DNA of 63,398 bases from a virus (IMGVR_UViG_3300032271_000550:1-63398), one strand, 5' to 3'. Positions 29,144-63,398 are shown, counted from the first letter of the stretch. Numbers and translations are program-made. The notes: generated by a model from the sequence alone, not told the origin.

Positions 29144-29311
29144 TTATTCATCGTGGTTTCGCAGTGGGAACGTAATGACCCACAAAGCAATAGCACCTAC
29201 GATGCACCAGCCAACTACTTGCTTAGCTGAGCCTTCTAGCACAATCCAAGCAACAAACATACCTAGCAGCGTCCAAAGCTGGCTTAGCATATCTTTAATA
29301 AATTTTTTCAT
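29144..29311 (-). CDS. small two-helix membrane protein, 55 aa
   Basis: MKKFIKDMLSQLWTLLGMFV followed by a second hydrophobic segment (VVGWCIVGAIALWVITF) and a charged end. Two transmembrane segments, small size and the location in the lysis region fit a second holin or antiholin. The start overlaps the upstream stop (TAATG). Confidence 0.6.
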   Translation of the reverse strand: MKKFIKDMLSQLWTLLGMFVAWIVLEGSAKQVVGWCIVGAIALWVITFPLRNHDE

Positions 29312-30660
29312 TATTTCTCTTTTCTTCGGATAGATGAGGTGGATGAAGAACTTGTGGCTCCTGCAGCACCAGCAGCGCCAGTAACTGCATTAACAGCAGC
29401 TCCTGTAGCCACAACAGCGGCTACGACTTCTTTTTTAGCCTTGGCGCGGTGAGCGGGGCTCATGTCCGAACCTAGATTTCCAAGAGCATTAATAGCGTTA
29501 GTAACTCCAGTTGCTACAGCGCCAAGAACAGGCACAGCCGCTAACTGTGGGTCTACCTGAATGTCATCTGCTTTAGCAGCTACCATAAGGGCATCAAGGG
29601 CTTGTTGATATTGAGGTGAATCTTCTGCCGCATTTGCAAGCGTAGTGTTAGCAGCTTCAGTTAATTGAGTTACTTGGTCAGATGTTAGTTCTTGTGGAGA
29701 AACAGCAGTTAAATTTTCTATGGTTGTAGCGGCGGCTTGGACTTGCTCTGCAATTGTTGGCGGGATGGGCTGCGTTTGTATTGGGACTTGAGTAGGTTCC
29801 TTGCTAATCGGAGGTGCAGGTGTTGGGACTTTCGCAGGTGGAACGGGGTCAACTACTGGCTCCTTTACTGGTGGGGTAACTACAGGGGGAGTAACCACAG
29901 GCGGGTCTACCACAGGCGGAACAACTACGGGCGGGTCTACCACAGGTGGTTCAATAACAGGGGGGTCAACTACAGGAGGCTCGACAATAGGTGGGTCAAT
30001 TACAGGAGGAACCACTACAGGTGGCTCTACCACTGGAGGAACTATTACTGGCGCAAAGCCATCAGTGGTAAAAAATTCTGGGGGAACAGTACTCCAGGTA
30101 TTTCCGTTGTCTGTTGAGTAAGTAAGGGTTGCATTAGCACCTCCACCATATTCGTAATACCAAGCATCTAAAGCATAAGTGTGACCACCGACAATTTGTA
30201 TGTCAGGATAGATACCACCCCAACGACCTTTGTCATACCAGTCATTAGTAATTATTGGGGTTTCGTCTAGCGATAAATAAAAACCATCATCGGCAAGTGC
30301 CTCAAACGTATAAGTACCAGAGTCTGGAAACGTCACAAAACCTGTGTAGTGCACAAGGACAAAATTATCTTGACAACCTGCCACAATACCGCCGTTGTTG
30401 TCGTCATACATTTGGTCAATGTTATCGACGTGAGTCCAAGCTCCGTCACATAAGGTATAGGGGACTCTATCAGGTCTAATCGACGGGTCGTAAGTATAAA
30501 CAGTTAAGTTAAGTCCGCTGACAGAGTCAGCAGAAGCTGATGTTGTAAATAGTAGCGAAGATGAGGCTACGAATATTACTCCGATTGATGCTGCGATTTT
30601 ACGCAGATTTGGCAATCGTATCCTTTGCAAATTAAAGCGAACATTATTATTGTCGCTCAT
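29311..30660 (-). CDS. secreted PA14-domain protein with Pro-rich stalk, 449 aa
   Basis: A Sec-type signal peptide (basic region, hydrophobic core ASIGVIFVASSSLLFTT, likely cleavage after SASA at residue 44) precedes a PA14 domain at about 46-205 (VHYTGFVTFPDSGTYTFEAL, DDGFYLSLDETPIITNDWYD). Residues ~207-300 form a PPVV(E/D)PP repeat stalk. The C-terminal 150 residues are Ala-rich and helical, without a clear sorting signal. PA14 domains bind glycans. Export from the infected cell is inferred. Its promoter region abuts the tRNA at 30683, on the opposite strand. Confidence 0.75.
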   Translation of the reverse strand: MSDNNNVRFNLQRIRLPNLRKIAASIGVIFVASSSLLFTTSASADSVSGLNLTVYTYDPSIRPDRVPYTLCDGAWTHVDNIDQMYDDNNGGIVAGCQDNFVLVHYTGFVTFPDSGTYTFEALADDGFYLSLDETPIITNDWYDKGRWGGIYPDIQIVGGHTYALDAWYYEYGGGANATLTYSTDNGNTWSTVPPEFFTTDGFAPVIVPPVVEPPVVVPPVIDPPIVEPPVVDPPVIEPPVVDPPVVVPPVVDPPVVTPPVVTPPVKEPVVDPVPPAKVPTPAPPISKEPTQVPIQTQPIPPTIAEQVQAAATTIENLTAVSPQELTSDQVTQLTEAANTTLANAAEDSPQYQQALDALMVAAKADDIQVDPQLAAVPVLGAVATGVTNAINALGNLGSDMSPAHRAKAKKEVVAAVVATGAAVNAVTGAAGAAGATSSSSTSSIRRKEK

Positions 30661-56726: not shown

Positions 56727-58766
56727 TTATCTACCTGCCTTAATCGTGTGTTTGACTACATCTTTAGCGACCTTAACTAAATCGCTAGGTTGTGTGATTG
56801 TTCGGAAGTTCTTAGCACCGTGACTAGCCTTTTTAACGCCGTCTGGGTCAGCCAATAGTCTCTGCGTGTATTCGTCAGTCCCAAGAAAGATGACGCTGGT
56901 GAAGACACCGCTTTGACCCATTTCGCTAATGAGTGGGTCGCTAGTAGTGCTAAAGCCACCGTCAGTCAGTAAGAATAATAGTTTTGTTTTAGCCTTGGAC
57001 TGCTGAAAGATACGCTGGCTTTCTAGTAGCGAGTAGTATGGGTCAGTTCCACCAGTTGCGTGCGCTATAAGAGCCTTGCTAGGGCTTGCTTTTTGGTCAG
57101 CCGAGTAGAGCATACGGCTGTCGGCGTTATAGGTCATGACTGACACCCTGCCGTTGATTTTCTCAATGGCTCGCTTGATTACCCACGCCGAACGGCTGGC
57201 AGAGCCAATCTCGTTCCACATAGAGCCTGAACGGTCAAGCGCAATACAGCACTCAATGTCGTAGTCTTCGTTGCCTAATGTCCAACGGTCAAACAACTTG
57301 CCTATCTCATTGACATCGGCGTTCATGGCACGCCTGACATTCAGTTTGCCAGTTGGTCGCTCAAGTTCCCACGCTGGGTCACACTCAATACGGATACGCT
57401 CTAGTTCTTGACCGAATAGGCGACTAGCCGTAATCTCGGCTTGCGTAGGTTCGTCAGCCGTTCCCTGTCCCTTGCCCAAAATAGACTTGGTAGATGAATC
57501 CTTGTTAATAGCCTTGATAGTCTCTCGGACTTTAGTTTTGAGAGACTCGTCATTCTTGGCACTCTGGACTGCTTGCTCAACGCTTTCGGCTAGGGCTTGG
57601 TCTTTATCGGTATTAAAGTCTTTGGTGTCTTTATTAAACTCGCCGTCACCGTCACCAGTAATCGAATAGCCTGCGCTGTTCTTATCTAAGTTCAGTTCGT
57701 CTGGTTCGCCGTCATCGGCAATAATAGCGTCTAGTTCTTTTTCACCAAGTGGCTTGCCGTTACGCATGACAGGGCGACCATCGCAACCGCTAGGTGTGTG
57801 TAGCGTCTCTGGAATGATAGCGATAAACTGCTCAATGAGTTCTTGACCCCGATTGTAGTCCCTTGGATAGACCAAAGAGCGATACTCTGAACAAATAGAA
57901 TAAACTTGTTTAGCCTGTTCTTCGCCGTATTGTTTGGCGTATGCCATAGCCGAATACTGTCGTGCTGGTAGCGAGAAGTATTTGCGACCTGCTAACAAAA
58001 CAAAGTTGTCAGAGAAGTCTTCTTGGTGTTTGGCGATGTATTCGCCTAGCAAGGCTGTGAAGAATGGGCGTGTGCTTGGATACTTGGTTGTCATGTAGTA
58101 TTCGGCTCGGCAGTCTTCCAAGATGTTAAACGCTCTAGCCCTAGCAGGGCTGACCAACTCTATGCTTTCAGCGGTAGTGGTGTGTTCGTTGCCTTGATAG
58201 TCTTTCCACTTGTTTTCGTGCGTAATGGTTTTCTTTTCCATGACCCACTTGCCTAGAGCCGTTCCCTGCCTTGGTGTGAATAGCAGGTGAGCGAGTTCGT
58301 GATAGTTCAAGCCGTGTAGCGAGATGACGGTTTCGTCTGTAAGAGCCTTGATGTGCTTGGCGTTAAAGGTGACATTCTTACCGTCATTCCACGCTGGGGC
58401 ATACTGTAAAGGGTCATCGTTCAGAAATACATCTACTGACAAGTTAGATAGGATACGGTCAGCCTTTTGGAATACTGAACAGAAACTGTCAAGCAAGTTG
58501 TTTCTTAATAGGATTGTCTGTTCCCTGTCTGCCGTCATGGTGCGAATGTGGTATTCAAAGTCAAGGCTGACTTGCTGGTATTCTTCCCAACGCTGTTGGA
58601 ATACAGTTTCGTATTCTTGACCAGTTAGTTTTGCGTGTTCTTCAGCCCACCTGACAATGCCGTTAGGGTTTTCTAGGTATTCTTTGTCCTGCGTTTTTAG
58701 AAAGTCAGTCCAATCCTTGAATGAGTGACCCCTGTTGGTTGCGATGTTGCGAATGTGCTTAGCCAT
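56727..58766 (-). CDS. HEXXH metallopeptidase-like + VWA protein, 679 aa
   Basis: Residues 156-160 are HELAH, a HEXXH zinc motif, followed ~55 residues on by NILEDCRAEYYM, a plausible third ligand. A charged Asp/Glu/Lys-rich middle leads to a C-terminal VWA domain with MIDAS CIALDRSGSM (Asp511) and LFLLTDGGFS. The architecture resembles the DUF2201-type metallopeptidase/VWA and CobT-like partners of MoxR AAA+ ATPases, encoded just upstream. Target unknown. Confidence 0.8.
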   Translation of the reverse strand: MAKHIRNIATNRGHSFKDWTDFLKTQDKEYLENPNGIVRWAEEHAKLTGQEYETVFQQRWEEYQQVSLDFEYHIRTMTADREQTILLRNNLLDSFCSVFQKADRILSNLSVDVFLNDDPLQYAPAWNDGKNVTFNAKHIKALTDETVISLHGLNYHELAHLLFTPRQGTALGKWVMEKKTITHENKWKDYQGNEHTTTAESIELVSPARARAFNILEDCRAEYYMTTKYPSTRPFFTALLGEYIAKHQEDFSDNFVLLAGRKYFSLPARQYSAMAYAKQYGEEQAKQVYSICSEYRSLVYPRDYNRGQELIEQFIAIIPETLHTPSGCDGRPVMRNGKPLGEKELDAIIADDGEPDELNLDKNSAGYSITGDGDGEFNKDTKDFNTDKDQALAESVEQAVQSAKNDESLKTKVRETIKAINKDSSTKSILGKGQGTADEPTQAEITASRLFGQELERIRIECDPAWELERPTGKLNVRRAMNADVNEIGKLFDRWTLGNEDYDIECCIALDRSGSMWNEIGSASRSAWVIKRAIEKINGRVSVMTYNADSRMLYSADQKASPSKALIAHATGGTDPYYSLLESQRIFQQSKAKTKLLFLLTDGGFSTTSDPLISEMGQSGVFTSVIFLGTDEYTQRLLADPDGVKKASHGAKNFRTITQPSDLVKVAKDVVKHTIKAGR

Positions 58767-60157
58767 TAGTTGTTACCTACTTCGTCTGCTTGAATCTTAC
58801 CAGTAGCGACAGAGATACCAAAGTCTTTGCCGATGTTTGACTTAGCCGTGTCGAACGCCAACTTCACAGCGTCACGCTCGTCATCTAGGAATCCGTTGAT
58901 GTAGGACATAACAGCATAGTCAAGCCCAAGGTTCTCAACATTCTTAACAAAACTGATTAGACCGCGAGTAGAGATAGGCGTGTCAATCTCGCCTTTGTCT
59001 GCTTGCTGGCGTAGTTTGCCTGCCAACTCCAAGAGAGCAGGTGACTTAATCAACTTCTTCTCAATAGCCTTGTCATAGTCAAACTCTAGTTTGTGAGCGA
59101 AACGGTCTTTCCACGCTTGGTTCATCGGGCGAGAGCCACGATAGTTCGGGTTGTGGTCGCCAATCACAACTAGGTCTGGGTGCGCCTTGATAACTTCGCC
59201 ACCGTTCTCTAGCAACTGTATTTCACGGCGGTCATCTAGCAGACCAAACAAAACTGTTGTGATACGCTCTGGCATAAAGTCAATCTCGTTGAGCAACAGC
59301 ACGCCACCGTGTCTTACCAAGTCTGTTACAGGTCCGTCTTGCCAACGGAATACGCCTGCCTGCTCGGTTGGTGTCCATGCGCCGAATAGGTGACTAGGCT
59401 CAAGCCCGACATTCGCCGAGATGTTGTAGTAGCGGTAGTTGTTTGTGCTTGCCCACGCCAAGACACACATAGTCTTACCCGAGCCTGCGCCACCACGAAT
59501 AATGACATTCTGCTTTTCGGCTTTGGCTGTGTCCAAGACATCGAAGTCGGTGATGTTCTTGTTGATAACATAACGGTTTAGATAGGTCTCTGCCCATTTC
59601 TTGTCTGGCACGCTGGCTAGTTCCGTAGGTGCGTATGAAGATGAACGAGTGACTACTGGCTGGTCTGTAACAGGCTGGTCAAGTGTCGTGCTGATTGGAT
59701 AGAACGCTGATTCAAGGACAGGCTCAACAGACTTGATAGGCTTGAGCGCAACAGGGCTGGTGCGTCTGCCGTCTCGGACATAATCGTTTAGGTGAGTGTC
59801 GCCGTTTTCCAACATCTCAATAAAGTGGGTTACAGCGTCATCGTGGTTCATCTCAACGGCTGGGTCAGTTGGTGCGACAGCGAGAGCCTTAGTTGCGAGA
59901 GCCGTAACAATACCCATTTTGGCTTGGGCTACATCTCGCTCGCTGATGATGACAGCGACAGGCTGGGCGGTTACAGGGATAGATTCAAAACCGAACGATA
60001 CTCTTGACCAACGAGAGCCACGACCACGCTGACCATTGGTTCGGCGTGAGAAGATTAGGACTTCGCTCTCGGTAGGAACGAGTAGCGTTTCGACAAAGAT
60101 AGCCCAACCGTCTTGTTGCTGTTCGGTCTGGCTCTTCAATAGGACTGCTAGTGACAT
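58766..60157 (-). CDS. MoxR/CbbQ-type AAA+ ATPase, 463 aa
   Basis: The N-terminal ~190 residues are variable. The AAA+ core has Walker A GGAGSGKT (about residues 222-229), Walker B LLLNEIDFMPE, sensor 1 VVIGDHNPNYRGSRPMNQAW and a lid (STRGLISFVKNVENLG). This fits the MoxR/CbbQ/CobS clade, which works with VWA proteins as chaperone or metal-insertion machinery. The VWA partner overlaps its stop. A long leader with two promoter modules precedes it. Confidence 0.87.
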   Translation of the reverse strand: MSLAVLLKSQTEQQQDGWAIFVETLLVPTESEVLIFSRRTNGQRGRGSRWSRVSFGFESIPVTAQPVAVIISERDVAQAKMGIVTALATKALAVAPTDPAVEMNHDDAVTHFIEMLENGDTHLNDYVRDGRRTSPVALKPIKSVEPVLESAFYPISTTLDQPVTDQPVVTRSSSYAPTELASVPDKKWAETYLNRYVINKNITDFDVLDTAKAEKQNVIIRGGAGSGKTMCVLAWASTNNYRYYNISANVGLEPSHLFGAWTPTEQAGVFRWQDGPVTDLVRHGGVLLLNEIDFMPERITTVLFGLLDDRREIQLLENGGEVIKAHPDLVVIGDHNPNYRGSRPMNQAWKDRFAHKLEFDYDKAIEKKLIKSPALLELAGKLRQQADKGEIDTPISTRGLISFVKNVENLGLDYAVMSYINGFLDDERDAVKLAFDTAKSNIGKDFGISVATGKIQADEVGNN

Positions 60158-60553
60158 GGGGGTTAGTTCTCTTTCGTGTATGTGCCTTGAGCGTTTCTCT
60201 CGGCTACAAAGAACAGACTACGCTATCGGGGTGACATAACCAAGGCACTTAGGTATTTATTTACCAAATGTTCATCTAACTGTGACCTGCCGTAACCTTC
60301 GGCAAAAAATCGGGGGCTTTGCTATTTCTTTGTATTCACCTATTAGAGAGAGACATTTAGATAGAGAGATAGGGATTGAGTGTAGCGTATGCGAATAATC
60401 CCACAGACATTTATTTCTCTCACGCTCTCTCTCTCCTTATAGCAACTACAACAAGCCCAGTAAGCCTTGCTCATCTGGGCTTATCCCTGCTTGCTTGTCA
60501 GGCTTGTTAGGCAGTAGCCTTTTTCGGCTCAAATCACATAGCATACTTCTCTC
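60158..60553 (-). other. long untranslated leader of the AAA+/VWA operon
   Basis: No convincing gene. In the transcript sense it contains an AAGCCCAG...CTGGGCTT hairpin (around 60445-60485), GA/TC-rich tracts (60340-60440), a 17-codon ORF at 60357-60410 (MSVGLFAYATLNPYLSI) without a well-placed SD, and a second promoter-like array (60260-60297). Confidence 0.5.
60226..60297 (-). promoter_or_regulatory. fourth hexamer array with -10-like element, no inverted repeat
   Basis: In the minus sense: GGTTAC, GTCACA, ATGAAC, GTAAAT at 11-bp steps, then TAGCGT 33 bp after the last hexamer, as in the three modules upstream of other units. The matches are weaker. The leader to the AAA+ start would be about 60 nt. 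Confidence 0.45.
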
Positions 60554-60631
60554 TCTATAGCAATAACCGTAACCAAATCGTTATAGCCAAAGATTTACCC
60601 GCCGTTTACTCTCTGTTAACTCTCCGTTCAC
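60554..60631 (-). promoter_or_regulatory. module 1 activator-array promoter (AAA+/VWA operon)
   Basis: In the minus sense: GTGAAC (60631-60626), GTTAAC, GTAAAC, GTAAAT (60598-60593), each 11 bp apart. TATAGA (60559-60554), with TG extension, begins 33 bp after the array. No -35 consensus is present, which fits activator dependence. Confidence 0.68.
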
Positions 60632-60661
60632 CTAAATATGGTAGGGCAAAGCTTAGCAGGC

Positions 60662-60750
60662 TTGTTGAGTTGGAGCCTTTTAGCCATTTCAGCTTAATAG
60701 AGGATTCCGTCCGTCCGGCCGGCTATGGCTAAAAGGCTCCAACTCAACAA
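60662..60750. repeat. module 1 long inverted repeat (26 bp perfect)
   Basis: Arms 60662-60687 and 60725-60750 are perfectly complementary around a 37-nt loop that contains CCGGCCGG. The outer 12 bp are TTGTTGAGTTGG/CCAACTCAACAA, shared with 62435 and 63293; the inner 14 bp (AGCCTTTTAGCCAT) are specific to this copy. Confidence 0.95.
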
Positions 60751-60778
60751 ACTTGCGTAGTTTGGCGCAGAAAAGGGA

Positions 60779-60811
60779 AAACCCCCAGCCAAATAGCGTT
60801 GGCTAGGGGTT
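60779..60811 (-). terminator. terminator of the upstream minus-strand unit
   Basis: AACCCC-C-AGCCAA pairs with TTGGCT-A-GGGGTT (one mismatch). In the minus sense it ends GGGGGTTTTCCC. It closes the unit 60869-62322 before module 1. Confidence 0.75.
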
Positions 60812-60812
60812 C

Positions 60813-60846
60813 TAGGCAGGCACAGAAAGGGGAAGAAGCCTGCCTA
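60813..60846 (-). ncRNA. hairpin with pyrimidine-rich loop
   Basis: TAGGCAGGC/GCCTGCCTA (9 bp). In the minus-sense transcript the 16-nt loop is TTCTTCCCCTTTCTGT, rich in CU and complementary to purine-rich SDs. Lies between the last gene and the terminator. Confidence 0.5.
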
Positions 60847-60847
60847 T

Positions 60848-60875
60848 CGTGTAGGAAGAAAGATAGACCTACACG
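60848..60875 (-). ncRNA. second hairpin with pyrimidine-rich loop, over a stop codon
   Basis: CGTGTAGG/CCTACACG (8 bp), loop TCTATCTTTCTT in the minus sense. It overlaps the stop codon of the gene at 60869. Confidence 0.45.
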
Positions 60876-61219
60876 CCGTCTTTGTAGTTAGTGCGACAGT
60901 TTTCGCACCACCATTCGTTACCTGCTTTGGTTTCTATGCGTTCGGTTGCTAGACCATTTCCGCAGAACTCGCAGGTGTAAGTGTGTTCGCCGTGTTCTGT
61001 GCCGTGTGCGCCCATACATACTTCACAGTCTTCGTTGAAGTCTAGTAAGCCTGTTTCGCCTACTTGTAGGGCTACGACAAGCATTTCGGCTTGTTCGCGT
61101 GTAATAAGCCCATCGTGGTCCCAGTTTAGTAGCAGATTGCGGATACGCTCTCGTTCCATAGAGATTCCGAATAGCATAATCTCTATGCGGTTTGCGTCGA
61201 ACTCTGGTTTTTCGTTCAT
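60869..61219 (-). CDS. zinc-binding protein, 116 aa
   Basis: Start chosen at 61219 (MNEKPEFDANRIEIMLFGIS). Helical N-terminal half, then three Cys pairs (CEVC, CEFC, CENC) with His residues, suggesting two ribbons. A TGTGATACACT promoter-like element with an inverted repeat (TGATAC/GTATCA, about 61296-61313) lies upstream. Confidence 0.62.
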   Translation of the reverse strand: MNEKPEFDANRIEIMLFGISMERERIRNLLLNWDHDGLITREQAEMLVVALQVGETGLLDFNEDCEVCMGAHGTEHGEHTYTCEFCGNGLATERIETKAGNEWWCENCRTNYKDGV

Positions 61220-61294
61220 CTTAGTTTTCTTCCCTGTAACAAGATAAGTTTGCTTTGTATTGTGAGTAGAACACGGATTAGTGTCCCGATTGCG

Positions 61295-61313
61295 TTGATA
61301 CCTAAGTGTATCA
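61295..61313 (-). promoter_or_regulatory. promoter-like element with TGATAC/GTATCA inverted repeat
   Basis: In the minus sense TGTGATACACTTAGGTATCA: a TG-extended GATACT-like -10 overlapping a 6-bp inverted repeat. It lies between the genes at 61341 and 60869 and could start transcription of the latter. Confidence 0.4.
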
Positions 61314-61340
61314 CATTTTGCGGTTGGCGATGACGACCCA

Positions 61341-61433
61341 TTAGTCTTCATCTTTTGTGTGGCAGTCGCAGTTGATACCAAAGTAACTGAACTGAACTCC
61401 GCAGGTGTCGCAGTATTCGGGTTCGTCAGCCAT
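61341..61433 (-). CDS. Cys-rich micro-protein, 30 aa
   Basis: MADEPEYCDTCGVQFSYFGI, then NCDCHTKDED: C-x2-C and C-x-C-H residues could bind one zinc. Overlaps the upstream stop (TAATG). Confidence 0.48.
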   Translation of the reverse strand: MADEPEYCDTCGVQFSYFGINCDCHTKDED

Positions 61434-61597
61434 TAGTAATCTTCTTCTGGTAGTTCGACTTCGACTTCTGTGTCACCGAACATACAGTTGCCTTCGGCAA
61501 ATGCTATTTCGGCTAGGTCTTGGGCGTCTTCTAACGAGTCTGCTTCAAAAATACCTGAAACAAGTTGGATTATTCTGCCGTTGATTTCGTATTCCAT
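61433..61597 (-). CDS. member of the 'EADSLEHAQ' family, 54 aa
   Basis: Start chosen at 61597 (MEYEINGRIIQLVSGIFEAD), then SLEDAQDLAEIAFAEG. It shares strand + FEADSLEDAQ helix with the products of 61597 and 55596. Acidic tail. Confidence 0.6.
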   Translation of the reverse strand: MEYEINGRIIQLVSGIFEADSLEDAQDLAEIAFAEGNCMFGDTEVEVELPEEDY

Positions 61598-61782
61598 TAG
61601 AAAGTCACTTTCTGTGGGTCGTCCCAGTCGGTGTCGCCGTTTTTGTAAAAGCGTTCTGAGTTTGGTAAGTCTTCCCAAGAGAGAACTTCGTCCATAAGTA
61701 TCTGGGCGTGTTCTAGGTCATCAGCCTCAAAGGTGATGATTGCGATTGTGTTTTCGATTTCTCTAAACTGGAACTTAGGCAT
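61597..61782 (-). CDS. member of the 'EADSLEHAQ' family, 61 aa
   Basis: MPKFQFREIENTIAIITFEA, then DDLEHAQILMDEVLSWEDLP. Close in pattern to 55596 (TADSLEHAQYLLAQVEDDE...ELPN). Overlaps both neighbours. Confidence 0.62.
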   Translation of the reverse strand: MPKFQFREIENTIAIITFEADDLEHAQILMDEVLSWEDLPNSERFYKNGDTDWDDPQKVTF

Positions 61783-61972
61783 TTTGGATACCTGCTTTCA
61801 GGATTTCGGTGGCGTGGGCGATTTGCCCGATTGTGATTTCACTTTCCCACTCTTCCGATTGGGTGTCCCAGACTGTTCCTTCTGGGAAACGAGCGACAAG
61901 GGTGCTGTCGTCAAAACTAACTTGTTTGGTTTCTGTATCAACACAGATGACAAAATAGACTTGCTTAGACAT
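61775..61972 (-). CDS. hypothetical acidic protein, 65 aa
   Basis: Start chosen at 61972 (MSKQVYFVICVDTETKQVSF), overlapping the upstream stop. Strands then a C-terminal helix (IGQIAHATEILKAGI). It may be a distant relative of the strand-helix family. Confidence 0.57.
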   Translation of the reverse strand: MSKQVYFVICVDTETKQVSFDDSTLVARFPEGTVWDTQSEEWESEITIGQIAHATEILKAGIQNA

Positions 61973-62144
61973 TCTCTTCTTCGCTTTCTTCTGGTTCTCC
62001 AACTTCAACACCGCTGTCGCCGTATTGTTCTAGGATTTCGCTAATAGGGCTGGATAGGTAAGTCATGGCTTGATGCCAAGCCGTAAATGCGTCTTTGGCT
62101 TCGATTTCCACCCAAGCCTCAATGGGGATAATGTATTTAGGCAT
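61965..62144 (-). CDS. small acidic protein, 59 aa
   Basis: MPKYIIPIEAWVEIEAKDAF, then TAWHQAMTYLSSPISEI: again M-P-K-Y, a strand and an A(K/D)-A-F...A helix. It ends EESEEENV. Overlaps both neighbours by 8 bp. Confidence 0.57.
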   Translation of the reverse strand: MPKYIIPIEAWVEIEAKDAFTAWHQAMTYLSSPISEILEQYGDSGVEVGEPEESEEENV

Positions 62145-62322
62145 TCTCTTCTTCCTGTTCTACTAGGGTTAGCCAAACATTCCAGTTATCAGGATTGTTT
62201 GCTAGGTTTATTAGGCACTTAGCACAAAGCGGGGTTTTTGTGCCAATGTATACTCCAAGAATAACTTGGGCGATTGCTGGTTTCTCATAACAGCCTTCGC
62301 AAGTGGGGGCAACTTTTGCCAT
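62137..62322 (-). CDS. zinc-ribbon protein, 61 aa
   Basis: The start at 62322 (MAKVAPTCEGCYEKPAIAQV) has SD GGGTGAGAG. Cys pairs CEGC and CAKC. First gene after the module 2 promoter; a longer frame would begin upstream of the predicted transcript start. Confidence 0.62.
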   Translation of the reverse strand: MAKVAPTCEGCYEKPAIAQVILGVYIGTKTPLCAKCLINLANNPDNWNVWLTLVEQEEENA

Positions 62323-62353
62323 AACTCTCACCCTTTCTATCTGGTGTAATACC

Positions 62354-62420
62354 ATACTAGTCTCTCCCACTGACATTGTGCGCCACTTTCAGGTAAATGG
62401 TTTATGAACATTAGGTAAAC
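62354..62420 (-). promoter_or_regulatory. module 2 activator-array promoter
   Basis: In the minus sense: GTTTAC (62420-62415), GTTCAT (62409-62404), ATTTAC (62398-62393), 11 bp apart, then TAGTAT (62359-62354) 33 bp further on. The TAGTATGGnAnTACA context is shared with module 3. Confidence 0.68.
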
Positions 62421-62434
62421 AACTCTTCGCAAAC

Positions 62435-62516
62435 TTGTTGAGTTGGAAGCCTATTAGCCTATAAAGACCGACGGGCACAAACAGCTACTTAGGCTAATAG
62501 GCTTCCAACTCAACAA
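62435..62516. repeat. module 2 long inverted repeat (27 bp perfect)
   Basis: Arms 62435-62461 and 62490-62516 are perfectly complementary around a 28-nt loop. The outer 12 bp are identical to modules 1 and 3; the inner 15 bp are AAGCCTATTAGCCTA, itself two tandem copies of AGCCTA(TT). Confidence 0.95.
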
Positions 62517-62521
62517 AATAG

Positions 62522-62560
62522 TCAAGCCCCGAGGCTGGGGAAACCTCGGGGCTTGATTTT
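62522..62560. terminator. terminator before module 2
   Basis: A 13-bp perfect stem TCAAGCCCCGAGG/CCTCGGGGCTTGA with a 9-nt loop. T-rich on both sides (TTTT on the plus side, CTATTTTG on the minus side). Confidence 0.85.
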
Positions 62561-62562
62561 GG

Positions 62563-62632
62563 TTGATAGCGGGGTCAAGGCAGGCGACACCTATGGCAAG
62601 CCAACTCGGTCTAAGCGTCGCCCCGCTATCAA
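62563..62632 (-). ncRNA. 70-nt structured element
   Basis: TTGATAGCGGGG (62563-62574) pairs with CCCCGCTATCAA (62621-62632); inside, CGAC (62585-62588) pairs with GTCG (62617-62620), and GGC-AA-GCC can form a small hairpin. Not followed by a T-run, so it may be a stable 3' RNA or processing element. Confidence 0.5.
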
Positions 62633-62639
62633 GGGGAGT

Positions 62640-62679
62640 GGTAGGGCTAGGGGAAAAGAAAGGAAAGCCTAGCCCTACC
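62640..62679 (-). ncRNA. hairpin with pyrimidine-rich loop
   Basis: A 12-bp perfect stem GGTAGGGCTAGG/CCTAGCCCTACC. In the minus-sense transcript the loop is CTTTCCTTTCTTTTCC, complementary to the SD region GGAAAG/GAAAGGAAA found before several genes of this block. Confidence 0.6.
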
Positions 62680-62687
62680 AAATCTAT

Positions 62688-63167
62688 TTAGTTTTCTTCG
62701 CAGTCCGTGACTTCGTGGTCTTCGACAGACACATCATCAAGGTCGCCACGATTGTAACCGTAACCAACACTAGCCGAGATGTCTAGGTCAATCTCTGAAC
62801 CGTCAAAGTTGTCCCAGTCGTAAGCAGGGCTGTTAGCAGTTACTTCGACATCGACATTTACAGTCAAGCGGAATGTCTTGGTGGTGGTCACATCAAGGTC
62901 AAAGATTTCTGAGATTTCTGTGGCGTGTTCGTCAAGGTCTTCCCAGTTCTCTTTGACATACTCCGCTAACTTGTCACGCTGTCCGACAAGTTTGGCGTGG
63001 TTTGTTTTGTGAGTGTTAGCCGAAAACTCCAATGAGTTCTTCTCACGAGTCACCTGTGCGAGTTGGGCTTCCAACGCTTCGTATGACGGTTTTTCTGATT
63101 CTGCCTGAATGTCTGCCATAACGCTGTCAGATAGTTCGGCTGGTTGATTCTCTTGGTTCTCCCACAT
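62688..63167 (-). CDS. hypothetical acidic coiled-coil protein, 159 aa
   Basis: The start at 63167 (MWENQENQPAELSDSVMADI) is chosen because a longer frame to 63212 begins upstream of the predicted transcript start. A coiled-coil segment (YEALEAQLAQVTREKNSLEF) is followed by a strand-rich C-terminus (TTKTFRLTVNVDVEVTANSP). Only gene of its unit; function unknown. Confidence 0.62.
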   Translation of the reverse strand: MWENQENQPAELSDSVMADIQAESEKPSYEALEAQLAQVTREKNSLEFSANTHKTNHAKLVGQRDKLAEYVKENWEDLDEHATEISEIFDLDVTTTKTFRLTVNVDVEVTANSPAYDWDNFDGSEIDLDISASVGYGYNRGDLDDVSVEDHEVTDCEEN

Positions 63168-63210
63168 GGTAATCTCTCTTTCTGTTAGGTGTGTATTTCC
63201 ATGTAGTTCC

Positions 63211-63276
63211 ATACTATACCCTGCCCTACTCTCTACCTACTCTTTTTGGCAAACGGCAAGTGAACAGTAGGTGAAC
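63211..63276 (-). promoter_or_regulatory. module 3 activator-array promoter
   Basis: In the minus sense: GTTCAC (63276-63271), GTTCAC (63265-63260), GTTTGC (63254-63249), 11 bp apart, then TAGTAT (63216-63211) 32 bp further on, overlapped by TATAGT (63218-63213). SD-led gene follows at 63167. Confidence 0.7.
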
Positions 63277-63292
63277 GATTTCTGTGACAAAC

Positions 63293-63376
63293 TTGTTGAG
63301 TTGGTTGCTTATTTGCTTATAAAAGCTGTTTAGACTTCCTCCGTCTGTCTAAGCAAATAAGCAACCAACTCAACAA
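63293..63376. repeat. module 3 long inverted repeat (27 bp perfect)
   Basis: Arms 63293-63319 and 63350-63376, 30-nt loop. Outer 12 bp as in modules 1 and 2; inner 15 bp TTGCTTATTTGCTTA, two tandem copies of TTGCTTA(T). An alternative inner hairpin TTAGAC/GTCTAA is possible. The last 22 bases of the window (63377-63398) end AAAAGCCCGCC, probably the first arm of another terminator. Confidence 0.95.
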
Positions 63377-63398
63377 ACTTGGTAGGCAAAAGCCCGCC

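Follow-up and report, generated by a model that had tools for sequence, protein, structure and literature searches.

The DNA analysed here is a viral stretch of 63,398 nucleotides (IMGVR_UViG_3300032271_000550:1-63398, called the window throughout), the right end of which contained minus-strand genes and, between them, three long and perfect inverted repeats. These repeats, numbered here as elements 1 to 3, share an outer stem of 12 bp, the clamp, and belong to class A of the three classes described below. The elements, to which no strand is assigned, and their clamps were located as follows.

60662..60750: element 1, class A; arms 60662-60687/60725-60750, 26-bp perfect stem, 37-nt loop; ahead of the AAA-ATPase/VWA operon
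62435..62516: element 2, class A; arms 62435-62461/62490-62516, 27-bp perfect stem, 28-nt loop
63293..63376: element 3, class A; arms 63293-63319/63350-63376, 27-bp perfect stem, 30-nt loop
60662..60673, plus strand: clamp 12-mer TTGTTGAGTTGG of element 1, partner arm 60739-60750
62435..62446, plus strand: clamp 12-mer of element 2, partner arm 62505-62516
63293..63304, plus strand: clamp 12-mer of element 3, partner arm 63365-63376

The initial annotation of this DNA had reported three perfect arm pairs with a common outer stem; their coordinates and perfect pairing were reproduced exactly, and the outer stem TTGTTGAGTTGG/CCAACTCAACAA was found in every arm pair, enclosing interiors that differ. 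The 12-mer TTGTTGAGTTGG occurred exactly six times in the record, each time in an arm of the three elements. No other inverted repeat of at least 20 bp was found in the window, the next longest being of 18 bp; two of the 18-bp repeats were terminator-like. In single-stranded DNA folding, each element was more stable than all of its 200 dinucleotide-shuffled versions (z of -10.7, -11.7, and -12.0 for elements 1, 2, and 3, respectively). The loops, which had been described as unrelated, proved clearly homologous when those at the same locus in relatives were compared. The loop AGCCGGCCGGACGGACGGA before the AAA-ATPase gene, for example, is common to the window, L007, L009, and L141.

Scans of IMG/VR with the exact and the relaxed clamp showed the element family in some 20 related uncultured phage contigs of freshwater type. 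The proposed search of related phages for the clamp pair recovered about 80 distinct elements. The set contained 82 distinct elements, gathered with the clamp 12-mers as sole bait, and 73 of these were single hairpins. The stems ranged from 20 to 64 bp and the loops from 13 to 46 nt. A scan of 84,980 bacterial and archaeal genomes gave zero elements; ten matches in the relaxed scan of such genomes were judged to be chance, as were most matches of a relaxed 9-mer scan and, among the matches listed, most of those to the single-arm bait ARRCTTGTTGAGTTGG. A nucleotide search of isolated phages gave no match to the right end of the window or to the class C region. Actinophage isolates with related AAA-ATPase or DUF932 genes contained no such elements: long inverted repeats were absent from the AAA-ATPase-bearing isolates Gray and Cantare, and a single 18-bp repeat was present in GMA6 and in Streptomyces phage Evy, whose small leftward genes form a similar array.

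Three classes were distinguished. Class A, to which the window elements belong, carries TTGTTNNGTTGG on the 5' arm with the clamp facing inward, and class B carries CCAACNNAACAA on the 5' arm with the clamp facing outward. In class C, the class B clamp closes two hairpins (three-way junction, n=7) or three hairpins (four-way junction, n=1, L205:2181), and the right-hand hairpins have in common a bulged A before GGC. Pairing in class C was taken from folds, as an automatic count of right arms had mispicked three of the eight elements. From the divergent promoter to the AAA/VWA operon, the order was found to be C, B, and A (L139, L097, L149, L011/G001, and G005); L160 contained classes C and A only.

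The clamp TTGTTNNGTTGG was conserved except for the two nucleotides NN, which were mainly GA, AG, GG, or AC, and also GT or GC. The NN allele was largely uniform within a genome and different between genomes; in L160, all six class A copies contained AC. The interior differed far more, and yet was always self-paired. Among class A copies, the clamp differed by a mean of 1.24 per 12 nt and the inner arm by 5.63, while the inner arms of class B differed by a mean of 7.5 per 12 nt. Watson-Crick pairs nevertheless made up 871 of the 876 inner-arm pairs (class A 524/528, class B 347/348), against means of 287 and 139 and maxima of 312 and 161 in the shuffles of classes A and B, respectively. These counts come from detection by the clamp alone and replace an earlier mismatch count that was biased by stem detection. 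The inner arms contained 40 pair types in class A and 46 in class B. G-T pairs were found in 0 of the 876 inner pairs, against 6.8% in the terminator folds of the same spacers, a rough control. Most inner arms were built of a direct repeat 7 or 8 bp long (the best period had one of these values in 58 of 72), with a mean direct-repeat run of 5.0 compared with 2.4 after shuffling. The perfect self-pairing of divergent interiors, first noticed in three copies, therefore holds for about 80 elements, and degenerate or unpaired inner arms, which would have spoken against it, were found in no relative, even with the one-arm bait.

The position of the elements was also stereotyped. Along the minus strand, the order was stop codon, intrinsic terminator, element, 11-bp direct repeats, -10-like sequence, and start codon, in agreement with the location between terminator and promoter given by the initial annotation; we infer the promoters and operators from this anatomy. 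One element was present per tandem boundary, between the terminator and the 11-bp operator-like repeats of the next unit, which in the window are of the GTTCACCTAAT type. A separate GC hairpin with a T run precedes the element, and 70 of 74 upstream 60-nt stretches folded below -12 kcal/mol. The median distance was 88 bp from the previous stop to the element and 123 bp from the element to the next start, with 471-559 bp before the AAA-ATPase gene. In class B, the gap from the end of the element to the first operator repeat hardly varied (7-8 bp), whereas the spacing of class A is loose. No element lay inside a gene model, short open reading frames that overlap an element having been excluded at gene picking, so the scattering of copies inside genes that would have refuted the earlier proposal was not seen within that limit. 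In all four of the genomes G005, G001, L199, and L205, the divergent first promoter had operator repeats but lacked an element; because of this, the element is a mark of tandem boundaries and not of promoters. The features around the elements in the window were the following.

60780..60813, minus strand: putative terminator of the upstream minus-strand unit, a GC hairpin and T run just before element 1, assigned from anatomy
62522..62557, minus strand: putative terminator hairpin just before element 2, likewise assigned from anatomy
63381..63398, minus strand: beginning of the terminator that precedes element 3; the contig stops within it, but L080 has it whole
63247..63276, minus strand: 11-bp-period direct repeats (GTTCACCTACT GTTCACTTGCC GTTTGCC) located between the promoter and element 3, and probably bound by an activator
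62390..62420, minus strand: 11-bp-period direct repeats (GTTTACCTAAT GTTCATAAACC ATTTACC) downstream of element 2
60597..60633, plus strand: 11-bp-period direct repeats in reversed orientation, near element 1
58766..60157, minus strand: AAA_5 ATPase gene (c3), downstream of element 1
56727..58766, minus strand: VWA-type partner gene (c6), no Pfam hit; position homologous to GMA6 orf62
62688..63212, minus strand: c1 gene, conserved across the family, downstream of element 3

With the VWA protein as the sole query, a search retrieved no relative. The closest named phages by the AAA-ATPase were the Gordonia phages (Bendigovirus) and Brevibacterium phage Cantare, with 38-47% identity, and this kinship makes a host among the Actinobacteria likely. 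The window phage also encodes PolA, RecA, a class II ribonucleotide reductase, and a tail-sheath-like protein; positions 29311-30660 encode a PA14-domain protein that has a stretch rich in proline and is probably structural. The leader of about 500 nt before the AAA-ATPase gene contained several promoter-like repeats together with low-complexity tracts rich in GA/CT (window 60340-60640; L265:17-45). The 11-bp direct repeats arrayed at the divergent promoter (L253:6985-7070 and L256:3307-3384) were genome-specific, of the GTTCACCTAAT or the CGTTATCAAAT type, and are probable binding sites of a phage activator. A small hairpin of the 5' untranslated region (GTAGCC...GGCTAC) was often found between the -10-like sequence and the start codon; it recurs ahead of start codons as GTAGCC-AAAAG-GGCTAC (L139:6510-6620 and similar) and reuses the TAGCC/GGCTA word found in the element arms.

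The identity of the two arms of each element can be explained at the level of DNA. The sites L008:100-181 and L011:9009-9090 are orthologues, the terminator and operators on their flanks being colinear, yet the loop is inverted between them; in the same pair, AGCCC was changed to AGCCA in both direct repeats and in both arms. A second loop inversion was found between L160:2854 and L160:4164. In L007 (arms of 39 and 64 bp) and L205/L206 (36 bp), some elements had arms that extended over adjacent operator repeats. Template switching at short inverted repeats is reported to homogenise arms and to invert spacers (PMC8604942), and it can maintain stems (PMC8794818). Because of the loop inversion between orthologues and the concerted change of direct repeats, the view that template switching at replication keeps the arms identical and flips the loop is well supported by these sequence comparisons. 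The signature of perfect arms and inverted spacers is the same as in the published cases, but those cases (PMC8604942; PMC8794818) are scattered repeats in coding or RNA genes, whereas here the element is repeated, fixed in position, and provided with a conserved clamp. The conserved clamp, the fixed position, and the branched class C are not explained by template switching and require selection. The initial annotation had offered either selection on a folded form (RNA or cruciform) or correction of the palindrome during replication. Correction is favoured by the inverted loops and concerted repeats and a folded form, separately, by the branched class C, but selection on the RNA is not.

The initial statement that no phage element of this design had been described stood in part, as no matching element was found in the databases and papers searched and none had the same build, but partial precedents of a different build exist. 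The nearest in role is the promoter early stem-loop (PeSL) of T4-like phages (Arbiol 2010; Comeau 2014; both through PMC4503421). They are described as repeated modules, each of a promoter and a stem-loop, which lie between genes of a variable early region and are linked with module shuffling; our elements likewise lie at gene boundaries in a region of intense shuffling. The PeSL stem-loop, however, is itself the terminator or part of it, whereas here a separate intrinsic terminator precedes the element. Compared with PeSL, the present stems are perfect and of 20-64 bp, every interior is different behind a constant clamp, branched forms occur, and the phages are not T4-like. The best reading of this comparison is that the element may be comparable in role to the T4 PeSL cassettes and different in build. 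The ESAS of cluster K mycobacteriophages are imperfect 17-bp arms of one consensus with spacers mostly of 4-13 bp; they lie at the start codon with the 13-bp SAS, and there is little support for hairpins (PMC3203893). Both ESAS and the present elements are inverted repeats with a group-specific consensus upstream of some non-structural genes of actinobacteriophages, but here the arms are perfect, of 20-64 bp, divergent between copies, and at a median of 123 bp from the start.

Other known families were also compared. The attC sites of integrons contain constant outer boxes (RYYYAAC/GTTRRRY) around a variable, self-paired, and sometimes branched interior. The likeness lies in co-directional units that are each bounded by a palindromic site and in the bulged bases of class C. 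RYYYAAC/GTTRRRY fits the class B alleles GA, AG, and GG but fails with AC, GT, and GC; moreover, no integrase was found in eight genome records, some of them incomplete, the cassettes here have their own promoters, and the outer box of class A is inside out. Hairpin promoters of the phage N4 type have a stem of 5-7 bp and a 3-nt loop and overlap the promoter, and were rejected here because the elements have stems of 20-64 bp, loops of 13-46 nt, and a distance of about 120 bp from the gene. A REP/RAYT or IS200/IS605 hairpin was likewise rejected, PF01797 being absent in eight of eight records with positive controls. Among the structured RNAs of Rfam 15, only tRNAs reached the gathering score, and sub-threshold matches to eukaryotic microRNAs were discarded as noise. 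The element belongs to none of the families tested.

We tentatively favour the reading that the element is a phage-specific boundary and exchange joint, acting at the level of DNA, which separates tandem early transcription units; its function is inferred. This reading is favoured by the self-paired inner arms free of G-T pairs, the loop inversions, the arms grown over operator repeats, the lack of an element at the divergent first promoter, the clamp alleles that vary by genome, the contig ends described below, and unit-wise change of gene content together with similar elements before non-homologous genes. Relatives were found to differ in entire units, c8 and c37 being missing from some and c2 and c45 standing in different places, and near-identical elements stood ahead of non-homologous genes (L011:11952 before c7 and L139:5288 before c1). 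At each tandem boundary, the constant 12-bp clamp closes a variable and always self-complementary interior; the folded form, a single-strand hairpin or an extruded cruciform, would present the clamp duplex to a phage protein. The joint would delimit gene cassettes of single units and permit exchange between them, and the different interiors would stop neighbouring joints from recombining through general homology.

A further step is quite unlikely in our estimate, namely that an unknown phage protein recognises the 12-bp clamp in folded DNA, be it a hairpin or a junction with three or four arms, and makes a cut or crossover at CCAA^CNNAACAA, shuffling co-directional early-gene cassettes without a known recombinase. 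The ends of contigs bear on this step and on the exchange joint in general. In the family, 19 of 43 distinct contig ends fell within elements (for example the L199 start, L008 end, L275 start, and L277 start), and 10 of the 43 started at one clamp nucleotide, CCAA^CNNAACAA. The ten came from several samples, carried four NN alleles, and were all on the CNNAACAA side, this one-sidedness being possibly an ascertainment effect. The window itself terminates 22 nt past element 3, and its nucleotides 63363-63398, across the end of that element, were identical to L080:1-36 (36 nt); from this match, L080 may be the continuation of the window phage, broken at the element. The pile-up may be the trace of a sequence-specific break or an artefact of assembly.

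The artefact option is one of several points that weigh against an exchange joint. No tyrosine recombinase (PF00589) was found in the eight genome records, some of them incomplete, with 14 of 14 controls positive; in the same records neither a serine recombinase nor, with positive controls, a Y1 transposase (PF01797) was found. A search for endonuclease VII carries no weight either way, since it was silent in the controls as well. No exchange event with a breakpoint inside an element was caught, and a replacement of one small gene was found within a unit and not at an element, at about 61606-61783 against L144:1265-1442, with 98% identity; the two genomes are otherwise 72-76% alike, so that the replacement looks recent. 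Cruciform extrusion is also unfavourable with large loops.

RNA processing and transcriptional insulation are serious rivals to the exchange joint. The former, which we regard as rather unlikely, holds that a read-through transcript folds into a long duplex, a target for cleavage by an enzyme such as RNase III or an obstacle to RNA polymerase, and that tandem early mRNAs are separated in this way. In its favour, the elements lie directly after terminators and are confined to tandem boundaries; two-turn perfect duplexes suit RNase III, and the strand-specific bulged A of class C, before GGCARC/GGCAGC, is of a kind frequent in RNA-protein sites. However, the lack of G-T among the inner pairs, set against its frequency in the adjoining terminators, disfavours selection on the stem at the RNA level. 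The class A clamp mismatches at position 6 point the same way, being A-C and not G-U on the gene-sense strand in three of four cases; inverted loops are tolerated, and the promoter-like sequence downstream of the element would leave it outside the main transcripts.

Transcriptional insulation, also unlikely in our view, supposes that a clamp-bound protein on folded or duplex DNA blocks interference between units or assists the promoter, with no role in recombination. The presence of one element in each tandem unit, the near-constant distance of class B to the first operator repeat, and the genome-specific clamp alleles, which suggest co-evolution with a binding protein, agree with it. But the first promoter does without an element, which is thus not needed for promoter activity; class A spacing to the repeats is loose, and a protein that binds duplex DNA would have no need of a self-complementary interior.

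It is improbable that the element is a selfish palindromic mobile element, REP- or MITE-like, spreading among intergenic sites. Many copies per genome and similar copies at non-orthologous sites would suit such an origin, but the copies are not scattered and stand beside terminator and operators; target duplications were not observed, neither a Y1 transposase nor a recombinase turned up in the eight records, and no host copies were found. A mere by-product of template switching at an ancestral palindrome, without selected function, is very improbable and hard to hold. Homogenisation and loop inversion, both template-switch signatures (PMC8604942), speak for it, but the clamp is far more conserved than the interior, each tandem boundary has one element, and the same clamp is kept in the branched class C.

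The elements form a densely repeated and structurally extreme family in environmental phages, which annotation has overlooked and at which assemblies break. They provide about 80 natural cases for studying how template switching maintains long palindromes amid full sequence change. If a protein does cut or cross over at the clamp, the shuffling of cassettes would be the phage equivalent of integron arrays. Should the clamp be a recognition site, it would imply an unknown protein by which early phage genes are organised or exchanged.

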